NCBI RefSeq assembly: GCF_000003815.2
Contig: NC_049991.1
Span: 19,279,760-19,343,759 of the forward strand
DNA: 64,000 nt
Direction: 5' to 3'
Source of the DNA: Branchiostoma floridae
Lineage: Eukaryota; Chordata; Leptocardii; Amphioxiformes; Branchiostomatidae
The stretch's first letter is position 1, and every line of letters begins with the position of its first letter. This document shows, piece by piece, positions 13,203 through 55,030 of this stretch. The notes beneath the pieces were generated by a model. The model was not told where the DNA came from. It made no database searches and was given only the letters and a program-made list of their open reading frames with translations. The translations under genes were made by a program, and so were the position numbers.

Positions 13203-13488
13203 TACAGTATAGAAGCCAGGTAATTGCACAGCGGATAACTGCACTCTTCTGTAAATTGCGGTCCAGCTGGATAGTTTTGCCGGATCCGGATTATTGAATG
13301 AATGAATGAATGAATGAATGAATGAATGAATGAATGAATGAATGAATGAATGAATGAATGAATGAATGAATGAATGAATGAATGAATGAAAGAAAGAATG
13401 AATGAATGAATGAAGACCTTAATTGTACAGTTTGCCCAACTGAAATACGCTGGCAAATGGGGTGTGCAATTAAACGGCTTCTACTGTA
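13203..13488. mobile_element. AATTGCACA-type MITE interrupted by a microsatellite expansion
   Basis: Ends TACAGTATAGAAGCCAGG and AACGGCTTCTACTGTA match the intact copies at 32166-32358 and 37474-37653. The interior at 13293-13415 is replaced by GAAT repeats. Confidence 0.8.
13293..13415. repeat. (GAAT)n tetranucleotide microsatellite
   Basis: About 30 units with two AAGA variants; opens a false Phe-Ile-His-Ser ORF on the minus strand. Confidence 0.98.
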
Positions 13489-21070: not shown

Positions 21071-21140
21071 TACAGTGGAAGCCAGTTAATTGCACGTCAG
21101 ATAAACGCACACTTCGTTCAATTGCACGGAATCCCATAAT
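21071..21140. mobile_element. Fragment of AATTGCACA-type MITE
   Basis: TACAGTGGAAGCCAGTTAAT and GATAAACGCACACTTCGTT match the left end of 32166-32358; the right end is not recognisable. Confidence 0.55.
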
Positions 21141-28019: not shown

Positions 28020-28695
28020 AATGCCATTTCGAATAAATAGAACCCCCAGTTCGATTTCAGAGGTGTTTGAAATAGAACTAATATCGACCAATGGGCGGAG
28101 CTTCAGAACCATGATTGACTAATGGGCGGGGCTTCAGAACCATGATCGACCAATGGGCGGAACTTCAGAACCATAATCGACCAATGGGCGGGGCTTCAGA
28201 ACCATGATCGAACAATGGGCCGGGCTTCAGAACCATGATCGACCAATGGGCGGGGCTTCAGAACCATGATCGAACAATGGGCGGGGCTTCAGAACCATGA
28301 TCGAACAATGGGCGGGGCTTCAGAACCATGATCGAACAATGGGCGGGGCTTCAGAACCATGATCGAACAATGGGCGGGGCTTCGGAACCATGATCGAACA
28401 ATGGGCGGGGCTTCGGAACCATGATCGAACAATGGGCGGGGCTTCGGAACCATGATCGAACAATGAGCGGGGCTTCAGAACCATGATCGAACAATGGGCG
28501 GGGCTTCAGAACCATGATCGAACAATGGGCGGGGCTTCAGAACCATGATTGAACAATGGGCGGGGCTTCAGAACCACGGTCGTACGATGGGCGGGGCTTC
28601 AGAACCAAGATCGAACAATGGGCGGGGCTTCAGAACCATGATCGAACAATGGGCGGGGCTTCAGAACCATGATCGAACAATGGGTGGGGCTTCAA
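28020..28695. repeat. 31-bp minisatellite, 20 units, GC box in almost every unit
   Basis: Units recur exactly every 31 bases from 28092 to 28681. Most contain ATGGGCGGGGCTTCAG, i.e. a GC box (GGGCGGGGC, Sp1/KLF type). Several of the first six units read CCAATGGGCGG with a CCAAT word; later units have ACAATGGGCGG. 28463 and 28680 carry damaged boxes. The unit comes from a dispersed element (compare 22793-22860). Confidence 0.95.
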
Positions 28696-28914
28696 AATCT
28701 AGTAGCCCTGTTAGTCATGAAATTGTTTAAGATGAACTATGAATGTGCAAAAATGATGCAGAGGTCGAAGGATTTCATTATAAATCTTCTTTTATTTCCG
28801 ATTATGTTATGTAGACAAAATACATAGGAACGTCTGAATAAAGTATACAATCTGATCTTCGTAATTATATGTACAAGTCGCAAGCAGAAGTTTCTCTGCT
28901 CACACGGTAGCATC

Positions 28915-32165: not shown

Positions 32166-32358
32166 TACAGTAGAAGCCAGTGAATTGTACAACGGATCAA
32201 CGCACACTTCTGATTTACGGAATACAGCTTTACGGAATCCCCAAATCCCAAACCGGTGCATGAGGTCCAGCTGAAAAACTTCGTATTATTGCACCAGCCG
32301 GAAAATTGCACGAAATACGATGGCAAATAGGCTGTGCAATTAAACGGCTTCTACTGTA
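32166..32358. mobile_element. AATTGCACA-type MITE, intact copy
   Basis: TACAGTAGAAGCCAGTGAAT mirrored by TTAAACGGCTTCTACTGTA. Tc1/mariner/pogo-style TA borders. Used to define the copies at 13203 and 37474. Confidence 0.85.
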
Positions 32359-35537: not shown

Positions 35538-35636
35538 ACAGTTTTGTGACGTCTCTGACGACTTCCGTCTACAGTTTTGTGACGTCTCTGACGTCTTCCG
35601 TCTACAGTTCTGTGACGTCTCTGACAACTTCCGTCT
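35538..35636. repeat. 33-bp tandem repeat, three units, ending at the GPCR stop codon
   Basis: Units start ACAGTTTTGTGACGTCTCTG at 35538 and 35571, with ACAGTTCTGTGACG at 35604. Each carries TGACGTC, a CRE-like word. The last unit overlaps the TAG stop (35637-35635), so the array forms the start of the 3' UTR. Confidence 0.9.
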
Positions 35637-36083
35637 ACACGACCTGTCCCTCCTTTTTCGGGCTTTTACTCACGGACATGGTGACAACGCGCCCGTTCCC
35701 GTCCAGAGACGCCCGGCACGACTTCTGCCCGCTGCGATAGGACGGGCGCAGCTTGTTGCCGCCCCCGTCTCGGTCGGGGTCCGTCTCCTGCGCGCACTCC
35801 CGGAACCCGCGGAGGAACTTGCGCACCGTCCTGTCGCTGATGCAGTAGCAGATGGGGTCGATGGCGGAGTTGGCGATGCCGAGGCACAGCAGGAACGGGA
35901 ACACCCCGGCAGCGTCCTGCGCGGACAACAGGTCAGAAGGGTCGTGGAAGTCGAACCACAGCACCAAGCAGAAGTAGGGGACCCAAGACAGCGCGAAGAA
36001 GGCGGTTAGCGCCATGAAGACGGTCACCACTCTCCTTCTCCCGTGCATGACGTCATTCTTGGAGTTCATCCGGCAATGGGCCC
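35635..36083 (-). CDS. GPCR exon 5: TM6, TM7 and C-terminus
   Basis: Two bases complete Gly237, then 148 codons to TAG at 35637-35635; the acceptor is CTTTCAG. Encodes AHCRMNSKNDVMHGRRRVVT, the TM6 helix FMALTAFFALSWVPYFCLVL, TM7 LCLGIANSAIDPICYCISD, and a tail with Cys333 (possible palmitoylation) and several Ser residues. GC-rich compared with its flanks. Confidence 0.93.
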
Positions 36084-36247
36084 CTGAAAGTGAGAAATCG
36101 TCGTTTTAGTTTTTTTTTAAATTCTCTTCCCTCTTGTCTTTGTCTGTCTCTCCTTTCTCTCCCACTCTCGTCTGTCACCCTCTCCCTTTCTTTCTCTCTC
36201 TCCTCCTCCCCCCTCCCTCTCTTTGGTCTTTGGGGATCGGACTTTTG

Positions 36248-36299
<52 letters not shown>

Positions 36300-39200
36300 A
36301 CACACACACATGTTAATAATCTATGACATCGATACACGATCGTACATTTGCAATTTTGATAAACCTGGCCCCTACATATTTCAAGAACCCCGGTTCCTCT
36401 TGAGCATTGAACTTCGTCTAAATGATAACGTTTCGTTTCAAGAATTAAGCTTTATCTCAAGAATTACGCTTCGCTTGAAGAATTACGATTCGTCTGGAGA
36501 GTTACGCTTCGTCCCAAGCATGACGCCTTGTCTCAAGCATTTCATTTACTTCGTCTCATAGATCAGGCGTGAAGTTCAAAGAAAGAATTAGATGTCATCC
36601 ACACTCAGTAGCAACTGGTTAACATTTACGAAGAACAATACCGATAGGTTACCAGGGACGTTGACATTCCTTTCTGAGAAGCTTGACTTAAGCGACCTGA
36701 CACGTGACATGTGATGCCCTAATCAAAGATGGACCGAAACAACCCATAGTGGCAGAGGTTGCGAGTATGGTAAGCTTTTGAAGCATCTATCGAATGCAGC
36801 CTTTTGAAGGGTGATTGCAGCTTCAAATTGATTCCTACGCAGAGAGGTGGCTCGAGTAGTTTTTTTTAAGTAACTCGAGTATTGGTTTGGCGATAACTCA
36901 AAAAGTGTTTTGATAATAATTCTGAAAATCTGGATTTTGTTTCATTTTATAGTCTATTTGAGGTGTACAATTAAGTATTACGGCTGTCAAAATTTCTTTA
37001 ATGGAAATAAACCTACCAATGGCAATAAGCCAGAATTTAAAGGTTTCGTCGTGGTGACTGCACCTACACAACGTGCGGTTGTCGAGGCAAGGTTCCGGAT
37101 TTACGCAAACCCATTTTGTAGTACAGCAGTACTCATCGAGGTATTTCAGTTTCTATATTTCGTAATGTTTGTCATCTACCTGACTGAGTGTATCGTTTCA
37201 CCAGATCTCATATTTTGTTACATATGCGGTTTTCTATAAAGGGCATAAAGACAACTTCATATCAACACGCACAGATATAAAGCTTTAGAGCATGGGTATC
37301 GACAGAAGTTTGGATGCACCCGGCTGAGCATGACCTGATAGAACCCCAGATGTCACGGACGGGCAATTATCAAAAGGCCGCTGACATTTTGAAACCCTTG
37401 GCTGCATTTGAAGCTTAATCAGGAGAATAATAAGTGGACTCTAATTATCCAGTAGGTCGGATAATTACGGTGATACAGGGGAAGTCATTTAATTGCACCT
37501 CCTTGATTGCACACACAATGTCCAGGGTATTTCGTGTAATTTTCCGGGTCCGAAGCTATCCAGCTGGACCGCACCGGTTTGGGATGTTAAGGTTCCGTGC
37601 AATTAACAGAAGTGTGCGGCAATCCATTGTGCAATTAACTGGCTTCTACTGTACTTCCATTTTCCAACGCAACGAGTTAGCGTCTGCGTCAAAATGTTTA
37701 GGTGTTCAAAACTCAAATAGGCGGTTCCTGATATTTGCGATGTGCCCACCTAACTTTCAGTTCGCTCAACCGTCCAATCCTGGCAGTCTCTGTTTTCAAT
37801 CCAGCTTGAGAATGGTCTGCCTAAACACTTCAAACGACCTCAAACGACTCTAATATGCAGTGTACATGGGGCAACAATCTTGTGTGGCGCTCTGGATACA
37901 TTGTTATAACCGGCTTGGGGTGAGCGGAACAGACCTGAATGCATACCATGACAAAAAGCAAACAGACACATGATCTATTTTCACGAGCGTAACGAACCTC
38001 GTTTGGCCTGGAAGACCGTGTCCCGTCGCCAAAGCGAATACTTCAGAAAAGTTTCGTTGTTCAAAACTCAAACAGGTGGTTCCTGACATCCAACTTCCAC
38101 TTCATGTTCGCTCGACCTTCCAATCCTGACGGTCTCTGTTTTCAACTCAGCTCGGGAACAGATCTGAACCGTCAAACGCATACCATGACAAACAAACATA
38201 CGGAAACGACGCACGTTACGAACCTCGTTTGGCCTTGAAGACCGTGTCCCGTCGCCAGAGCTTCCGGGCTCAAGCAAACAAACAAACAAACAAACAAACA
38301 AACAAACAAACAAACAGACAGACACGATCTATTTTCACGCACGTAACGAACTTCGTTTGGCCTGGAAGACCGTGTCCCGTCGCCAGAGCTTCCGGGCGAT
38401 CTTGTTGTACAATTAACTGGCTTCTACAAAATATGAACTAACATAATGAACGAACGTAACGAACGTAACGTTGGTTTCACGAACGTAACGTAACGTAACG
38501 TTGGTTTCACGAACGTAACGTAACATAACGTTGGTTTCACGAACGTAACGTAACGTTGGTTTCACGGACGTAACCTAACGTAACGTTGGTTTCACGAACG
38601 TAACGTAACGTAACGTTGGTTTCACGGACGTAACCTAACGTAACGTTGGTTTCACGAACGTAACGTAACGTAACGTTGCTTTCATGCACTTAACGAACCT
38701 CGTTTGGCCTGGAAGACCGTGTCCCGTCGCCAGAGCTTGAGGGCGATCTCTCGGTAGGTGACGCACATGGTCCCGAGGGGCAGCACCAGTAGCACGGCGA
38801 ACAGGGCCAGGTCGTACCCCTTCTTCAGCGCAGTGGACGGCCACTACACATGGGGAAGAAACAAATGGTCATTGACATTGACATTGAACGTGGACATCAG
38901 GGATGTCATCACGGGTCACAATGGATCCTTCTTCTCCACTCAGCCTTGTCCTCCATGAGGGAGCGAAGCTCTGCTGTGGTGATGTTACTGATTTGGGTGT
39001 ACCTTTAAAGGTTGTTGATGGAGGCAGTACGCTTTTTGCCCTTCTACTTTTCCCCCCTCTCTGCTCCCAGAGCGTAATGGTAGTGTTATACATTACCCAC
39101 CCTGCACAAATGACTTCAGCACCCTGCCGCACCACTTGTTGCAGAAATGGAAATGGCCCAGTACTAGTACTGCCAGTTTATTATATTACAAATGATCATA

Positions 39201-45200: not shown

Positions 45201-46650
45201 ATTTATCGGGTGGGCGGTGAAATTTCAAGCTGGAGCCACCGGCAATGGTGGAACACGTCGTGAGAAACAAAGAATGATTTACCAATGACAACATTTTAAA
45301 CACACATACACACAGCTACAGTTCGTAGCTTGGGAAGCTTTAGAGACGCACTCTATTTATCAACCCAGTAGATATCGACCTTGTTGCGCATACGTGACGG
45401 CTGATACACGTTGTCATGTGATAAGACACGGTCATAAACAGGTCTGAGATAGTTGTTTGTTCTAGTTCTAGTTCTAGTCCTAGTCCTAGTCTATGGTCTC
45501 CAAACTTCCTTGTAGGAATATCACGCAGACGGAGAAGGCTCAGCGTCTGGACTACGTGTGCGATAACAGCAACCTGCTTTTGAATCTGTCCAGTGAGGGG
45601 CTGTCGACAATGTGGGCGGAGAGGCTGTTCCACTCGGCATGAAATGCATATTTGGCAGTGTCATACTTAGGTCACAGAGTCCTGTACTTGTGTGAGTGGT
45701 AGGCACGTGTACTCGCGTATGCTCGCATGAGGCGAATAGGCTGTTTGTTACACCCGCCCGGTGAGTTAACATGCATGACACAAACAAACAAAAGTTCAGC
45801 GCTTACTAGTATGGCTGTTGTACATAAATTTTAGTTGCGCAGCTCAGTTCACTTTTTCTTATCTTCGTTTTTGTTTCGCGCACCACCACCTGCCACACTA
45901 GCTGCACCTTTTTCCCCAGGACGTGAAGTACTTTGTCCTGTACCACGAAGAAGAAACAAACAACCAGACCTACCAACGAGATCGCTTGGCGCAGCGGCAG
46001 CGTGTTTGGCTTGGGGCCGAGAGGTCTCGAGATCGAATCCTGCCTTGTCACCGATCTTGTGCCCTTGGGAAAGGCACTTTACACGGCTTTCTTCACTTTA
46101 CTCAGATGCAAATGAGTACCTTGCTTCGGCTAGAGCCGCCCCCCGATAGGACGTTAAATGGGGGTCCCGTGTCTGGGGAGAGCCACACGCACGTTTAAAA
46201 AGAACCCTGCACAATTGCAATGGTGCGGTGTCCGATGGTGCGGTGTGCGATCGTACAAATCCTTCCGTCTAGAATTGGTGATTCTCTACAAATCACTCGG
46301 ACTCCAAGAGGAATAGTGACATATCACCCACTAATGGAGATCTGTATAACGAAACCAAACCAGACCCACCTTCTCCGTGCACAGCACCAGGTCCAGCTGG
46401 ACGGGGTAGACCAGGTGTTTGACCTCTATCTCGCTGAAGATGGCGATGGGGAGCATGATGGAGGCAGAGACCGCCCAGGTGGCCAGGACACACCGCTTCA
46501 CACGGCTCTTCGTCGACAGCACCTGAAGAAATGGCAGTGAGTGGCGTTACATAATGAATGGCATCGAATGATCGAGTGGCTATGATGATGATGATGATGA
46601 TGATGATGATGGTGATGATGGTGATAATGATGATGGTGATGATGGTGATA

Positions 46651-46684
<34 letters not shown>

Positions 46685-48364
46685 GTTGAAAAGTCCAGAA
46701 ATCGAGATATTAAACCCCGCTGCAGTACCGTAACAGCCCGCCAGGGGACCCAAAATCTAATCGTTTCCAGGTGTTGACAAGACCTATTTACATAGTAAAT
46801 ATCAATACAATTGCAATCCATTCAGGCGTTCTAGAGTTATGCTGGTCTTCTACACACAAACGCTAAGCAAAATATAACCTTCTTGGCGAAGGTAATCTGT
46901 TTGTTATTTGTTAAGCCTTCCAGACCACTTAGATTTCATAATGAATGTAACTCATTTTGGCCAAACTTTTTTTTTTAATCAGCTGTAGGATTCTCATAGA
47001 ATGTCATCCATATAATCAAACATGGCCTTATGGTGTTCAATATCACTGGGATGGTCCTTACCTTGGCCCGTAGCGGGTAGCAGATGGCCATATAGCGGTC
47101 TAGGCTGACCACTGTGAGCGTGAGGACGCTAGTGGACACCACCACCGCCTGGACGTAAGGCAGCGTCTTACACAGCACCTGGCCGTACACGTAGCTCCTG
47201 TACACCTCCATACCCAGGTTGATGGGAACGCACAGGCAGATCACCAGCAGATCGCACACGGCGAGGTTCAGCATAAACGCGTTTGCCACCTGGAAGGAAG
47301 AACGTCAGTAAACAAGAAATCTCAAACGAAGTAATTAAAGTTACTCCGCATTTTCTCCAAGCAATGACTGTTTTTAAAGATAAGGTGCATACCTCCAAAT
47401 TTTCGACGGCTAACAGTCCATCTTGCTCACGAGAGAGCACGAGACTAGGTCGCTCTCCGTGAGCAAGATGGACTGTCGAAAATTTGGAGGTATGTACCTT
47501 ACCTTTAAAGACTGTCATTGCTTGAAGAAAATTTGGGGTAACTGTATTCATACGTGACTGATGAACCTCATAAATGAAGTAATTTTTGTGAAGTTCTTAC
47601 TGCCATAGCCCTGTCCATCACAGACGTTAGTGATTCTATCCTTCCCTTCTTCCTTTAATCAATCCAAGCTATTTCTCAGGAAGGAAGGAAGGTAAGAACA
47701 AACAAAGGAGGGAAGTGCCTCACAAATGAGGAAGAAAGATAGAAAGGGATGAAGTTAGGAAGGGCGGAGGAGAGGCAGGAAAGAAGGAAGGGAGGGTGGC
47801 TGGATGGAAGGAAGGAGGATGGAAAAGAAGGAGGAAGGAAAAAGAAGATAATGGATAGATGGATGGAAAGAAGAGAGTAATGAAATAAATGAAGAAGGAG
47901 GGCAGGAAAAGAGAAAGGAACAAGAAAGGAAAGAATGGAAGGAAGGAAAGAAAGGCAGTCGAGACCAGTAGCCGTTTGCTGTACCTAATCCATGCGTTGC
48001 GACTTCTACAGGAAAAGGAAGGAATGAAAAAGAGGAGGGGAGGAAGGATGGGAGAAGAGGAGGATTGAAAAAAGGAAGGGAGGCAGGAAGGAAGGGAGGA
48101 AATAAAGAAGGAAAGAAAAAAAGAAAGAAAGGAGGAAGAGATGGTAGGAAAGCAGTTAAGGCCAATAGATATTTGTCGTACCTTATCCATGCGTCGCTTC
48201 TTCTGCAGTAGCGCCAGCACCACCAGGTTGCCCGTGAAGCCGACCAGGAAGATGGCGGAGTACAGCACGATGAGCGCGATGCTGGTTGGTCGGGTGTAGG
48301 TGAAGAGGATGTCGGCCGCGGTGAGCTGGAGCCCCGCGGGCAGGTCGGGCCAGCTCCCGTTCAT
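35635..48364 (-). CDS. Rhodopsin-family (class A) peptide-type GPCR, five exons, 385 residues
   Basis: A seven-helix plasma-membrane receptor. Exons 48182-48364, 47062-47289, 46370-46522, 38699-38843 and 35635-36083 join in phase with GT-AG borders. Landmarks: N-glycosylation site Asn2-Gly-Ser; TM1 Asn46 in TGNLVV; TM2 Asp74 in NLAVCDLLV; disulphide pair Cys101/Cys185; DRY at 125-127 (SLDRYMAICYPL); TM4 Trp153; TM5 Pro210 and Tyr218; TM6 ALSWVPYF with Trp270/Pro272; TM7 NSAIDPICY (Asp312, Pro313, Tyr316). The YGQVLCK-LPYVQ-SVLTL pattern of TM3 and EIALKLW of loop 3 resemble orexin/NPFF/QRFP-group peptide receptors, by recall only. Oddities: Ser for Cys in the TM6 CWxP motif and DP for NP in TM7. 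Ligand unknown. Its introns total about 12 kb and are repeat-filled. Confidence 0.92.
36247..36310. repeat. (CA)n microsatellite in GPCR intron 4
   Basis: About 30 CA units; a CT-rich tract precedes it at 36120-36230. Confidence 0.95.
36370..36560. repeat. Degenerate 21-bp tandem repeat
   Basis: Variants of TCAAGAATTACGCTTCGTCT recur about every 21 bases for some eight units inside GPCR intron 4. Confidence 0.65.
36570..37465. other. GPCR intron 4 sequence without recognised content
   Basis: AT-rich; a plus-strand 109-codon ORF has no recognisable domain and is antisense to the gene. Confidence 0.4.
37474..37653. mobile_element. AATTGCACA-type MITE in GPCR intron 4
   Basis: TACAGGGGAAGTCATTTAAT mirrored by TTAACTGGCTTCTACTGTA; homologous to 32166-32358. 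Confidence 0.75.
37690..38430 (-). repeat. Tandem modules carrying copies of the GPCR exon 4 3' end and splice donor
   Basis: Exon-like segments at 37998-38035, 38224-38263 and 38352-38400 match 38699-38747. On the minus strand each reads TGGCGACGGGACACGGTCTT, then a C/A-AGGCCAAACGA stretch, then a donor-like GTTCGT. The first copy differs from exon 4 by one base over 38, the third by three over 49. Between them recur GTTCAAAACTCAAA, TCTCTGTTTTCAA and GCATACCATGACAAA blocks. Confidence 0.85.
38272..38317. repeat. (CAAA)n microsatellite
   Basis: About 11 uninterrupted AAAC units within the duplicated module region. Confidence 0.95.
38437..38690. repeat. GTAACGTAACG minisatellite at the exon 4 splice donor
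   Basis: About eight units of 25-30 bp, TTGGTTTCACGAACGTAACG followed by one to three TAACG words, ending about nine bases from the donor of exon 4. CGTTACG words on the transcript strand. Confidence 0.9.
38699..38843 (-). CDS. GPCR exon 4: TM5 and start of intracellular loop 3
   Basis: Forty-eight codons plus one base; acceptor TGTGTAG before 38843, donor CGAG|GTTCGT. Encodes WPSTALKKGY, the DLALFAVLLVLPLGTMCVTY helix, then REIALKLWRRDTVFQAKR. Its last 38-49 bases and donor are repeated three more times in the following intron. Confidence 0.9.
38850..40730. other. GPCR intron 3, part without recognised repeats
   Basis: No exon in phase with its neighbours and no known family recognised. 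TAGTAGAAGCCATA at 39511 is an isolated end of the AATTGCACA MITE. Confidence 0.35.
40846..41180 (+). repeat. SINE second-module fragment in GPCR intron 3
   Basis: ACCCGAGTCAGGGGTAGG, AGGAACCCCTTGCATCC, AATCTGCTAGGGCCGTCTTA; colinear with 14165-14460 and 11735-12000. Confidence 0.65.
41248..41437. mobile_element. TTCACCTTTATC/GGATAAAG-type MITE
   Basis: TTTCACCTTTATCTGCAGGG mirrored by TTACCCTACGGATAAAGG with internal ACCGTCCGTCGACTTGATAT. Relatives at 10655 and 55400. Confidence 0.7.
41438..41660. repeat. Composite tandem repeat, CACTAGCGTTAAGGAGAC units
   Basis: Four ~43-bp units (CACTAGCGTTA, GGAGAC, ATCT, GGCTTAAGAA) arranged as two pairs, each pair followed by a GCAGTG-AGCC block. Confidence 0.85.
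41670..43150. other. GPCR intron 3, unassigned stretch
   Basis: Short ORFs only; a C10 homopolymer at 41890-41899. Nothing recognised. Confidence 0.35.
43155..43479. mobile_element. GTACGG-rich element, copy 2
   Basis: TAAAGTTCAGGGC at the left and GGGTTGTACCCTAAGCTT at the right; TACGTGCAATTTGTCGGTAC; a G12 run at 43279-43291. Confidence 0.7.
43490..44335. other. GPCR intron 3, unassigned stretch
   Basis: No gene or family recognised. Confidence 0.3.
44343..44712. mobile_element. Foldback MITE with ~135-bp arms
   Basis: TTCAAATACAATTTAATCTC, GAGTGACATCCATTCTTCTTC (core GAGTGACATCCATTC) and GAACAATTCAATA on the left are mirrored at 44575-44700. The left end GAAGGTTAGACATCCAGTTAA, seen here as GGTTAGACATCCAGTTAA, links it to the 6555 family. 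Confidence 0.8.
44715..45975. other. GPCR intron 3, unassigned stretch
   Basis: (CTAGTT)n/(CTAGTC) words at 45460-45492. No gene recognised on either strand. Confidence 0.35.
45980..46290 (+). mobile_element. tRNA-headed SINE
   Basis: Box A TGGCGCAGCGGCAGCGTG, box B GAGATCGAATCC, then GCCCTTGGGAAAGGCACTTT, GGACGTTAAATGGGGGTC and GGTGCGGTGTG. It lies about 80 bases downstream (transcript sense) of the exon 3 donor, antisense to the gene. Confidence 0.85.
46370..46522 (-). CDS. GPCR exon 3: TM4 and extracellular loop 2
   Basis: Fifty-one codons, phase 0; acceptor TTCTTCAG before 46522, donor AAG|GTGGGT. Encodes the CVLATWAVSASIMLPIAIFS helix and ends DLVLCTEK, with the loop-2 Cys. Confidence 0.9.
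46578..46682. repeat. (GAT)n microsatellite
   Basis: Interrupted GATGAT/GGTGAT array in GPCR intron 2; its shadow is a false poly-His ORF. Confidence 0.95.
46788..46895 (+). repeat. Dispersed repeat fragment with AAAATATAACCTTCTTGGCG tail
   Basis: ATTGCAATCCATTCAGGCGT and TTCTAGAGTTATGCTG match 5300-5530 and 52137-52425. Confidence 0.5.
47062..47289 (-). CDS. GPCR exon 2: TM2-TM3 with DRY
   Basis: Seventy-six codons, phase 0 at both ends; acceptor CTTCCAG before 47289, donor AAG|GTAAGG. Encodes VANAFMLNLAVCDLLVICLC, extracellular loop 1, the TM3 Cys, and VSLDRYMAICYPLRAK. Confidence 0.93.
47339..47543. mobile_element. Long hairpin MITE in GPCR intron 1
   Basis: CAAGCAATGACTGT, ATACCTCCAAATTTTCGAC and AGTCCATCTTGCTCACG on the left are mirrored on the right, ending GTCATTGCTTG. 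The loop is about 25 bases near 47433-47458; arms exceed 80 bp. Confidence 0.85.
47678..48160. repeat. GGAA-rich purine tract filling GPCR intron 1
   Basis: GGAAGGAAAG-type repeats; on the transcript strand a long pyrimidine tract. Interrupted at 47954-48011 by a copy of the exon 1 end. Confidence 0.9.
47954..48011 (-). pseudogene. Degenerate copy of GPCR exon 1 3' end and splice donor
   Basis: On the minus strand CTGTAGAAGTCGCAACGCAT, then GGATTAGGTACAGC, aligns with the true exon end CTGCAGAAGAAGCGACGCAT, then GGATAAGGTACGAC (48152-48208). The match runs on into the intron (TATTGGCC/TACTGGTC, AACTGC/GACTGC). Two in-frame TAG codons show it is not coding. It lies 198 bases downstream of the original. 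Confidence 0.8.
48182..48364 (-). CDS. GPCR exon 1: N-terminus and TM1
   Basis: Sixty-one codons from ATG at 48364 to AAG|GTACGA. It encodes MNGSWPDLPAGLQ and then TM1 (LYSAIFLVGFTGNLVVLALL). Eight in-frame codons precede the ATG back to a good acceptor (CCCCCGACTCCAG ending at 48389). An upstream exon in the same phase is therefore possible, and the true N-terminus may be longer. Confidence 0.88.
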
Positions 48365-53389: not shown

Positions 53390-54205
53390 AACTGGCCATT
53401 GACATACAGTAAAACCTATAGTAGTGACCACATCTACATAAGGACCACCTGACCATTGTCATACAGTCAAACCTGTACTAGTGACCACCTCTACATAAGG
53501 ACCACCTGGTCATTGACATACAGTCAAACCTGTACTAGTGACCACTTCTACATAAGGACCACCTGGCCATTGATATACAGTCAAACCTGTACTAGTGACC
53601 ACCTGTACATAAGGACCACCTGGCCATTGATATACAGTCAAACCTGTACTAGTGACCACTTTTACATAAGGACCACCTGGCCATTGATATACAGTCAAAC
53701 ATGTTCTAGTGACCACCTCTACATAAGGACCACCTGGCCATTGATATACAGTCAAACCTGTACTAGTGACCACCCCTACATAAGGACCACCTGGCCATTG
53801 ATATACAGTCAAACCTGTACCAGTGACCACCTGTACATAAGGACCACCTGGTCATTGACATACAGTCAAATCTGTACAAGTATCCACCTGTACATAAGGA
53901 CCACCTGGTCATTGTCATACAGTCAAACCTGTACAAGTGTCCACCTGTACATAAGGACCACCTGACCATTTTCATACAGTCAAACCTGTTCTAGTGACCA
54001 CCTCTACATAAGGACCACCTGGTCATTGACATACAGTCAAACCTGTTCTAGTGACCACCTCTACATAAGGACCACCTGGTCATTGTCATACAGTCAAACC
54101 TGTTCTAGTGACCACCTCTACATAAGGACCACCCGGCCACTGATATATAGTCAAAACTATACAAGTGACCACCTCTGCACAAGGACCACCTGGTCACTGT
54201 TGCCA
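53390..54205. repeat. 57-bp minisatellite, 14 units
   Basis: The AGTCAAACC start recurs at 53465, 53522, 53579 and so on to 54149, with a variant at 53408, exactly every 57 bases. The unit has no stop in one plus frame and in minus frames, so 19-residue repeat ORFs (YSQTCTSDHLYIRTTWPLI) appear on both strands. No start context, signal or splice evidence supports a protein. TACAGTCAAACCTG also begins the sequence at 60925, resembling pogo/Tigger-type ends. Confidence 0.95.
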
Positions 54206-54930: not shown

Positions 54931-55030
54931 NNNNNNNNNNNNNNNNNNNNNNNNNNNNNNNNNNNNNNNNNNNNNNNNNNNNNNNNNNNNNNNNNNNNNN
55001 NNNNNNNNNNNNNNNNNNNNNNNNNNNNNN
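54931..55030. other. Assembly gap (100 N)
   Basis: Exactly 100 N, the usual placeholder for a gap of unknown size. Confidence 1.

Follow-up and report, generated by a model that had tools for sequence, protein, structure and literature searches.

The window analyzed here, a 64,000-nucleotide (nt) stretch of the Branchiostoma floridae genome, contains a class A peptide-receptor gene in which the last 38 to 49 nt of coding exon 4, together with its GTTCGT donor, are present three extra times in the following 2.6-kb intron. We consider it very probable that the copies represent a mirage repeat, i.e., a duplication of the exon 4 donor region by local events, neutral to splicing. This reading is based on the finding of a four-member family (the authentic junction and its three copies) which crosses the exon/intron junction, is local, and has kept the splice signal in some of its members, as in the amphioxus cases considered below. 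Within a functional intron, the copies most probably have no job.

Host gene and copies of its exon 4 junction

The receptor gene lies on the minus strand, where five exons, when joined at AG/GT borders, give a continuous frame of 385 amino acids. The predicted protein matches Pfam 7tm_1 (E value, 4.9e-52), and its closest solved relatives by sequence, among the 60 of 831 matches listed, are the cholecystokinin, neuropeptide FF, and orexin receptors. The intron positions presumably resemble those of vertebrate CCK/NPFF-type receptors. L006 and L008, two paralogues encoded in this genome, have an open frame without introns across the receptor, with 165 of 360 and 147 of 368 positions identical, respectively, and are possibly retrocopies of the five-exon receptor. 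In the paralogue alignment, L009, which contains Ns, was represented by its readable part only, and L010 to L014 were left out of the final comparison. The gene is organized as follows (slashes in splice sites mark the exon/intron border):

48182..48364, minus strand: exon 1, donor AAG/GTACGA
47062..47289, minus strand: exon 2, part of the joined frame
46370..46522, minus strand: exon 3, part of the joined frame
38699..38843, minus strand: authentic coding exon 4, 145 nt, TM5 to ICL3; donor GAG/GTTCGT, phase 1
36084..38698, minus strand: intron 4, 2,615 nt, from exon joining; host of the candidate mirage copies
35635..36083, minus strand: exon 5, TM6-TM7 plus C terminus and stop codon; acceptor tctcactttcag/GGGCCC, clean joined frame, 7tm_1 match

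The repeated sequences within intron 4 are the following:

37979..38048, minus strand: copy 1; exon-like part 37998-38035, donor 9-mer identical to the authentic one, 52/57 against the authentic junction
38205..38274, minus strand: copy 2; donor 9-mer identical to the authentic one, 54/59 against the authentic junction
38333..38402, minus strand: copy 3; exon-like part 38352-38400 plus intron start, donor mutated to GAA/GTTCGT, 65/70 against the authentic junction
37692..37812, minus strand: distal, intronic portion of the copy-1 unit, with two blocks that match the copy-2 unit
38450..38695, minus strand: 30-bp minisatellite, 8.4 copies, adjoining the authentic donor; unit aligned to the donor flanks

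Each of the three exon-like sequences (37998-38035, 38224-38261, and 38352-38389) differs by a single mismatch in 38 nt from the authentic exon end (38699-38736), and copy 3, read from the alignment over 49 nt, by three, confirming the recurrence of the exon end and donor at three intronic sites reported in the first-pass annotation. Their start-to-start spacing is 226, 128, and 347 nt. A 31-nt probe across the exon 4 junction hit 4 sites in the window and none in 100 dinucleotide shuffles; a search of both strands of the whole window found no further copy of the exon end, the next-best gapless 38-nt match being 22/38.

The same annotation had the copies ending at the exon/intron border, which does not hold. 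The homology to the authentic junction crosses the donor, extending 19 nt into the intron in copies 1 and 3 and 13 nt in copy 2, and it goes further among the copies themselves. Copies 3 and 1 have 79 of 85 aligned positions in common, about 50 nt of them intronic, while copies 1 and 2 extend as partly matching units with 190 of 210 aligned positions shared and 146 gap columns, the gapped middle being uncertain. In the distal part of the copy-1 unit, the two blocks match the copy-2 unit gaplessly at 38047-38089 (86%) and 38099-38158 (82%). Copies 2 and 3 carry CGG where the authentic exon 4 has CTC; the three aligned paralogues have K, F, and K at that codon, so that the change could not be polarized.

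A further match, between 38405-38427 and 37627-37649, overlaps the GTGCAATTAACTGGCTTCTACTGTA motif and, because this motif is dispersed, is not a firm guide to how long the full tandem unit is. The motif, of 25 nt, is found at five sites in the window with up to three mismatches (37629-37653, 32334-32358, 32166-32190, 21071-21095, and 13464-13488) and forms with 37474-37498 an inverted pair resembling the ends of a short inverted-repeat element. Two other repeats were observed in the window, an array at 28100-28700 repeating about every 31 bp, for which the open reading frame list shows several open frames on the two strands, and a long open tandem repeat of YSQTCTSDHLYIRTTWPL-like units at 53453-53962.

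When the 403-nt block 37998-38400 was searched against one genome (513,431,437 bases; best candidates only scored, common words skipped), it matched four places, all at the receptor locus. With no copies away from the locus in this search, the local tandem amplification of exon end and donor proposed in the first-pass annotation is backed, and a dispersed repeat or transposable element as the source of the block, a possibility the annotation had wanted checked, is unsupported. A second haplotype of the block was not found among the best candidates from this single assembly.

The minisatellite that adjoins the authentic donor resembles the sequence flanking the donors of the copies. Its unit matches the intron start of copies 1 and 3 at 15 of 16 nt each (score of 27 each), a score reached by 0 of 1,000 mononucleotide shuffles (mean, 8.8 for copy 3 and 9.0 for copy 1). 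The similarity to the copy 2 flank is weak (38 of 1,000 shuffles reach the score), and the score of 34 against the authentic flank is not independent, since that flank overlaps the array. These matches suggest that the minisatellite probably grew from donor-flanking intron sequence.

Pooled over the three copies, the exon-like parts show 3 mismatches to the authentic junction over 114 sites, and the first 19 intron nt show 13 over 57; the sites are not independent, and about 5 of the 13 intron mismatches stem from an indel in copy 2, gap-aware alignment ends giving 8/51. Between copies 1 and 2, 2 of 38 exon-like and 17 of 103 intron-like sites differ (P = 0.10). Gene conversion by the exon could explain why the exon-like parts are better kept, although so small a sample does not carry such a claim; a less likely explanation is that the copies are used.

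A plausible course of events is that a segment reaching from the interior of the exon 4 3′ end through the 5′ splice site into the intron was duplicated, by unequal exchange or by replication slippage, which would have left the three extra junctions in intron 4. The 30-bp minisatellite probably arose by expansion of part of the donor flank. The copies may then have diverged by substitutions, indels, and TTTG expansion, presumably in this order of events.

A second, decayed junction copy in the same gene

An additional junction copy is found in intron 1 of the receptor gene:

47942..48011, minus strand: exon 1/intron 1 junction copied within intron 1, older and decayed; 52 of 70 columns identical

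This copy also crosses the junction, including TAG/GTACAG, and scores 47 versus a shuffle maximum of 28; the corresponding values for the donor 4 junction copy are 103 and 34. They come from a survey of 15 boundaries in two genes of the window, eight from the receptor gene and seven from a serine-carboxypeptidase-like gene, in which each junction probe was compared with its own intron (or, for the last boundary, with 5 kb instead). Only donors 4 and 1, both of the receptor gene, exceeded every shuffle (2/15); no junction copies were found at the other 13 boundaries of the two genes in their own introns. One receptor gene thus shows two duplication events of different decay, and an event similar to that at donor 4 may have struck donor 1 earlier.

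The intron 1 sequence around the decayed donor copy is polypyrimidine-rich. The second gene surveyed has its minus-strand exons at 905-2520 (about 0.9 to 2.5 kb) of the window, and we take it to be serine-carboxypeptidase-like from motifs such as ESYGG.

Donor strength and alternative readings

The donor 9-mer of the authentic site, GAG/GTTCGT, is kept in two of the three copies, while that of copy 3, GAA/GTTCGT, scores worse. Of the decoy 5′ splice sites that each copy was said to offer, those of copies 1 and 2 have an intact 9-mer and that of copy 3 is damaged. If any of the copies were used as an alternative exon 4 donor, the reading frame would continue into GSLSA and a stop, an outcome against which selection would presumably act.

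A different form of use is that copy 2, copy 1, or both are spliced in as cassette exons, amounting to a functional or latent exon duplication that would add 15 or 23 residues to the third intracellular loop, ending in the basic ICL3 motif WRRDTVFxAKR. On paper, the copy 1 cassette (38066-37998, 69 nt) and the copy 2 cassette (38268-38224, 45 nt) both have lengths divisible by three, keep the receptor frame without a stop, and end with the authentic donor 9-mer; the latter has a T-rich TTTG tract and an AG upstream of it, and the exon-like parts are, as noted, somewhat better kept than the flanking intron. Both candidate acceptors, however, are GAG, a poor context by the acceptor consensus, and neither is copied from the authentic exon 4. 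Only two of the nine upstream AGs listed give a workable cassette, against an in-frame expectation of about 1 in 3 by chance, and the remaining seven, all five of copy 3 among them, lose the frame or contain stops. We therefore regard inclusion of the copies as cassettes as very unlikely. About as unlikely is the idea that in copies 1 and 2 cassette exons are just emerging, which duplicate the basic part of ICL3 and are kept coding-competent by gene conversion from exon 4; if true, junction minisatellites would become a source of receptor isoforms.

Similarly hard to credit is that the decoy donors regulate intron 4 splicing by competing for U1 or recruiting it. The authentic exon 4 donor indeed has the lowest matrix score among the gene's four donors (4.2 versus 7.5, 11.2, and 9.8), and two copies share its 9-mer. 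However, of the 225 GTs counted in intron 4 (a total that includes the authentic donor and its copies), 16 equal or exceed the authentic donor's score and 13 exceed it, some of the latter within the intron's repeat units, so that the copies do not stand out. For all these scores, the matrix frequencies and the U1 sequence were generic ones, not derived from the genome under study. In addition, published mirages reportedly leave splicing undisturbed (PMC3087553 and PMC3902484). Nothing in our data points to the competition for U1 or supply of new exon ends envisaged at first; published mirages reportedly splice normally, and 13 intronic GTs outscore the authentic site.

With that many stronger GTs, motif strength alone cannot pick the authentic site, which points to exon definition. 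Under the preferred reading of a splicing-neutral mirage repeat, the spliceosome would pair the authentic donor with exon 4, as only that donor adjoins an acceptor-bounded exon, and the copies would be removed together with intron 4. In that case the gene would lend itself, as a natural experiment, to studying how the spliceosome passes over decoys that carry the authentic donor's 9-mer and nearly the same upstream exon sequence.

An assembly artefact, through stacked haplotypes or misjoined repeats, has a precedent in a globin-gene mirage reported to be aberrantly assembled in an older genome draft (PMC3087553), and the window does contain one N run, at 54931-55030. No N run lies near the copies, however, and their differences in indels, TTTG tract, and 17 of the 103 sites of two intron blocks mean that they are not simply repeated haplotype stretches, making this explanation exceedingly improbable.

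It is just as doubtful that the repeats reflect an intron gain in progress, since the copies sit in an existing intron, no copy of the exon 4 end was found at the exon 5 acceptor in the window search (next best, 22/38), and intron 4 would be old, and the paralogues retrocopies, if the intron positions resemble the vertebrate CCK/NPFF-type receptor pattern as we presume. In favor of such a gain, for which a Rogers-type model was proposed for amphioxus globins, are the open, intronless L006 and L008 and the suggestion by the globin authors (PMC3087553) that mirages can create introns.

Comparison with amphioxus mirages and other known systems

Tandem exon duplication can give rise to mutually exclusive exons. 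The receptor gene resembles such cases in that exon sequence has been copied into the adjacent intron. Copies 1 and 2, unlike copy 3, can be read on paper as in-frame cassettes, with GAG acceptors that do not stem from the authentic exon. The gene differs in that only the last 38 to 49 of the 145 nt of exon 4 were copied, without the authentic acceptor. A likeness also exists with the creation of introns by internal gene duplication involving AG/GT proto-splice sites (Rogers 1989; Gao and Lynch 2009, as cited in PMC3087553), since here too the duplicated segment carries splice signals; in the receptor gene, however, the copies lie inside an existing intron and no new intron was found.

The closest parallel is offered by the amphioxus mirages, described in PMC3087553 and PMC3902484 as minisatellite-like tandem duplications over exon/intron boundaries in the Adh3, globin, TnC, and PGBD5 genes, with unit lengths of 10 to 160 bp. 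For lancelets, therefore, tandem amplification anchored on a donor is not as unusual as the first-pass annotation had assumed. Among the globin genes, BflGb6 and BflGb9 carry mirages, that of BflGb9 including a duplicate of an exon's 3′ boundary; mirage length differs between haplotypes, splicing does not seem to be affected according to Adh3 data and globin RT-PCR, and the repeats have been proposed as a route to new introns (PMC3087553). In lancelet PGBD5, imperfect repeats of 60 and 108 bp lie over splice sites, with Adh and TnC cited alongside (PMC3902484).

As in these mirages, the receptor-gene units span an exon/intron boundary (38 to 49 nt of exon and at least 13 to 19 nt of intron), are tandem and local (spacing of 226, 128, and 347 nt; four genome matches at the locus among the best candidates), retain the splice signal GAG/GTTCGT in two of three copies, and sit in an intron between coding exons; as in BflGb9, it is an exon's 3′ boundary that was duplicated. 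Relative to these published mirages, the receptor copies are more widely spaced and interrupted (128 to 347 nt, against units of 10 to 160 bp, the minisatellite unit being 30 bp), they lie in a gene for a class A peptide receptor, and the same gene has a separate 30-bp array at the donor plus a second, decayed case. The receptor case is known from sequence, the globin mirages from RT-PCR as well (PMC3087553). With it, the receptor gene would be added to the lancelet genes for which PMC3087553 and PMC3902484 describe junction duplications.
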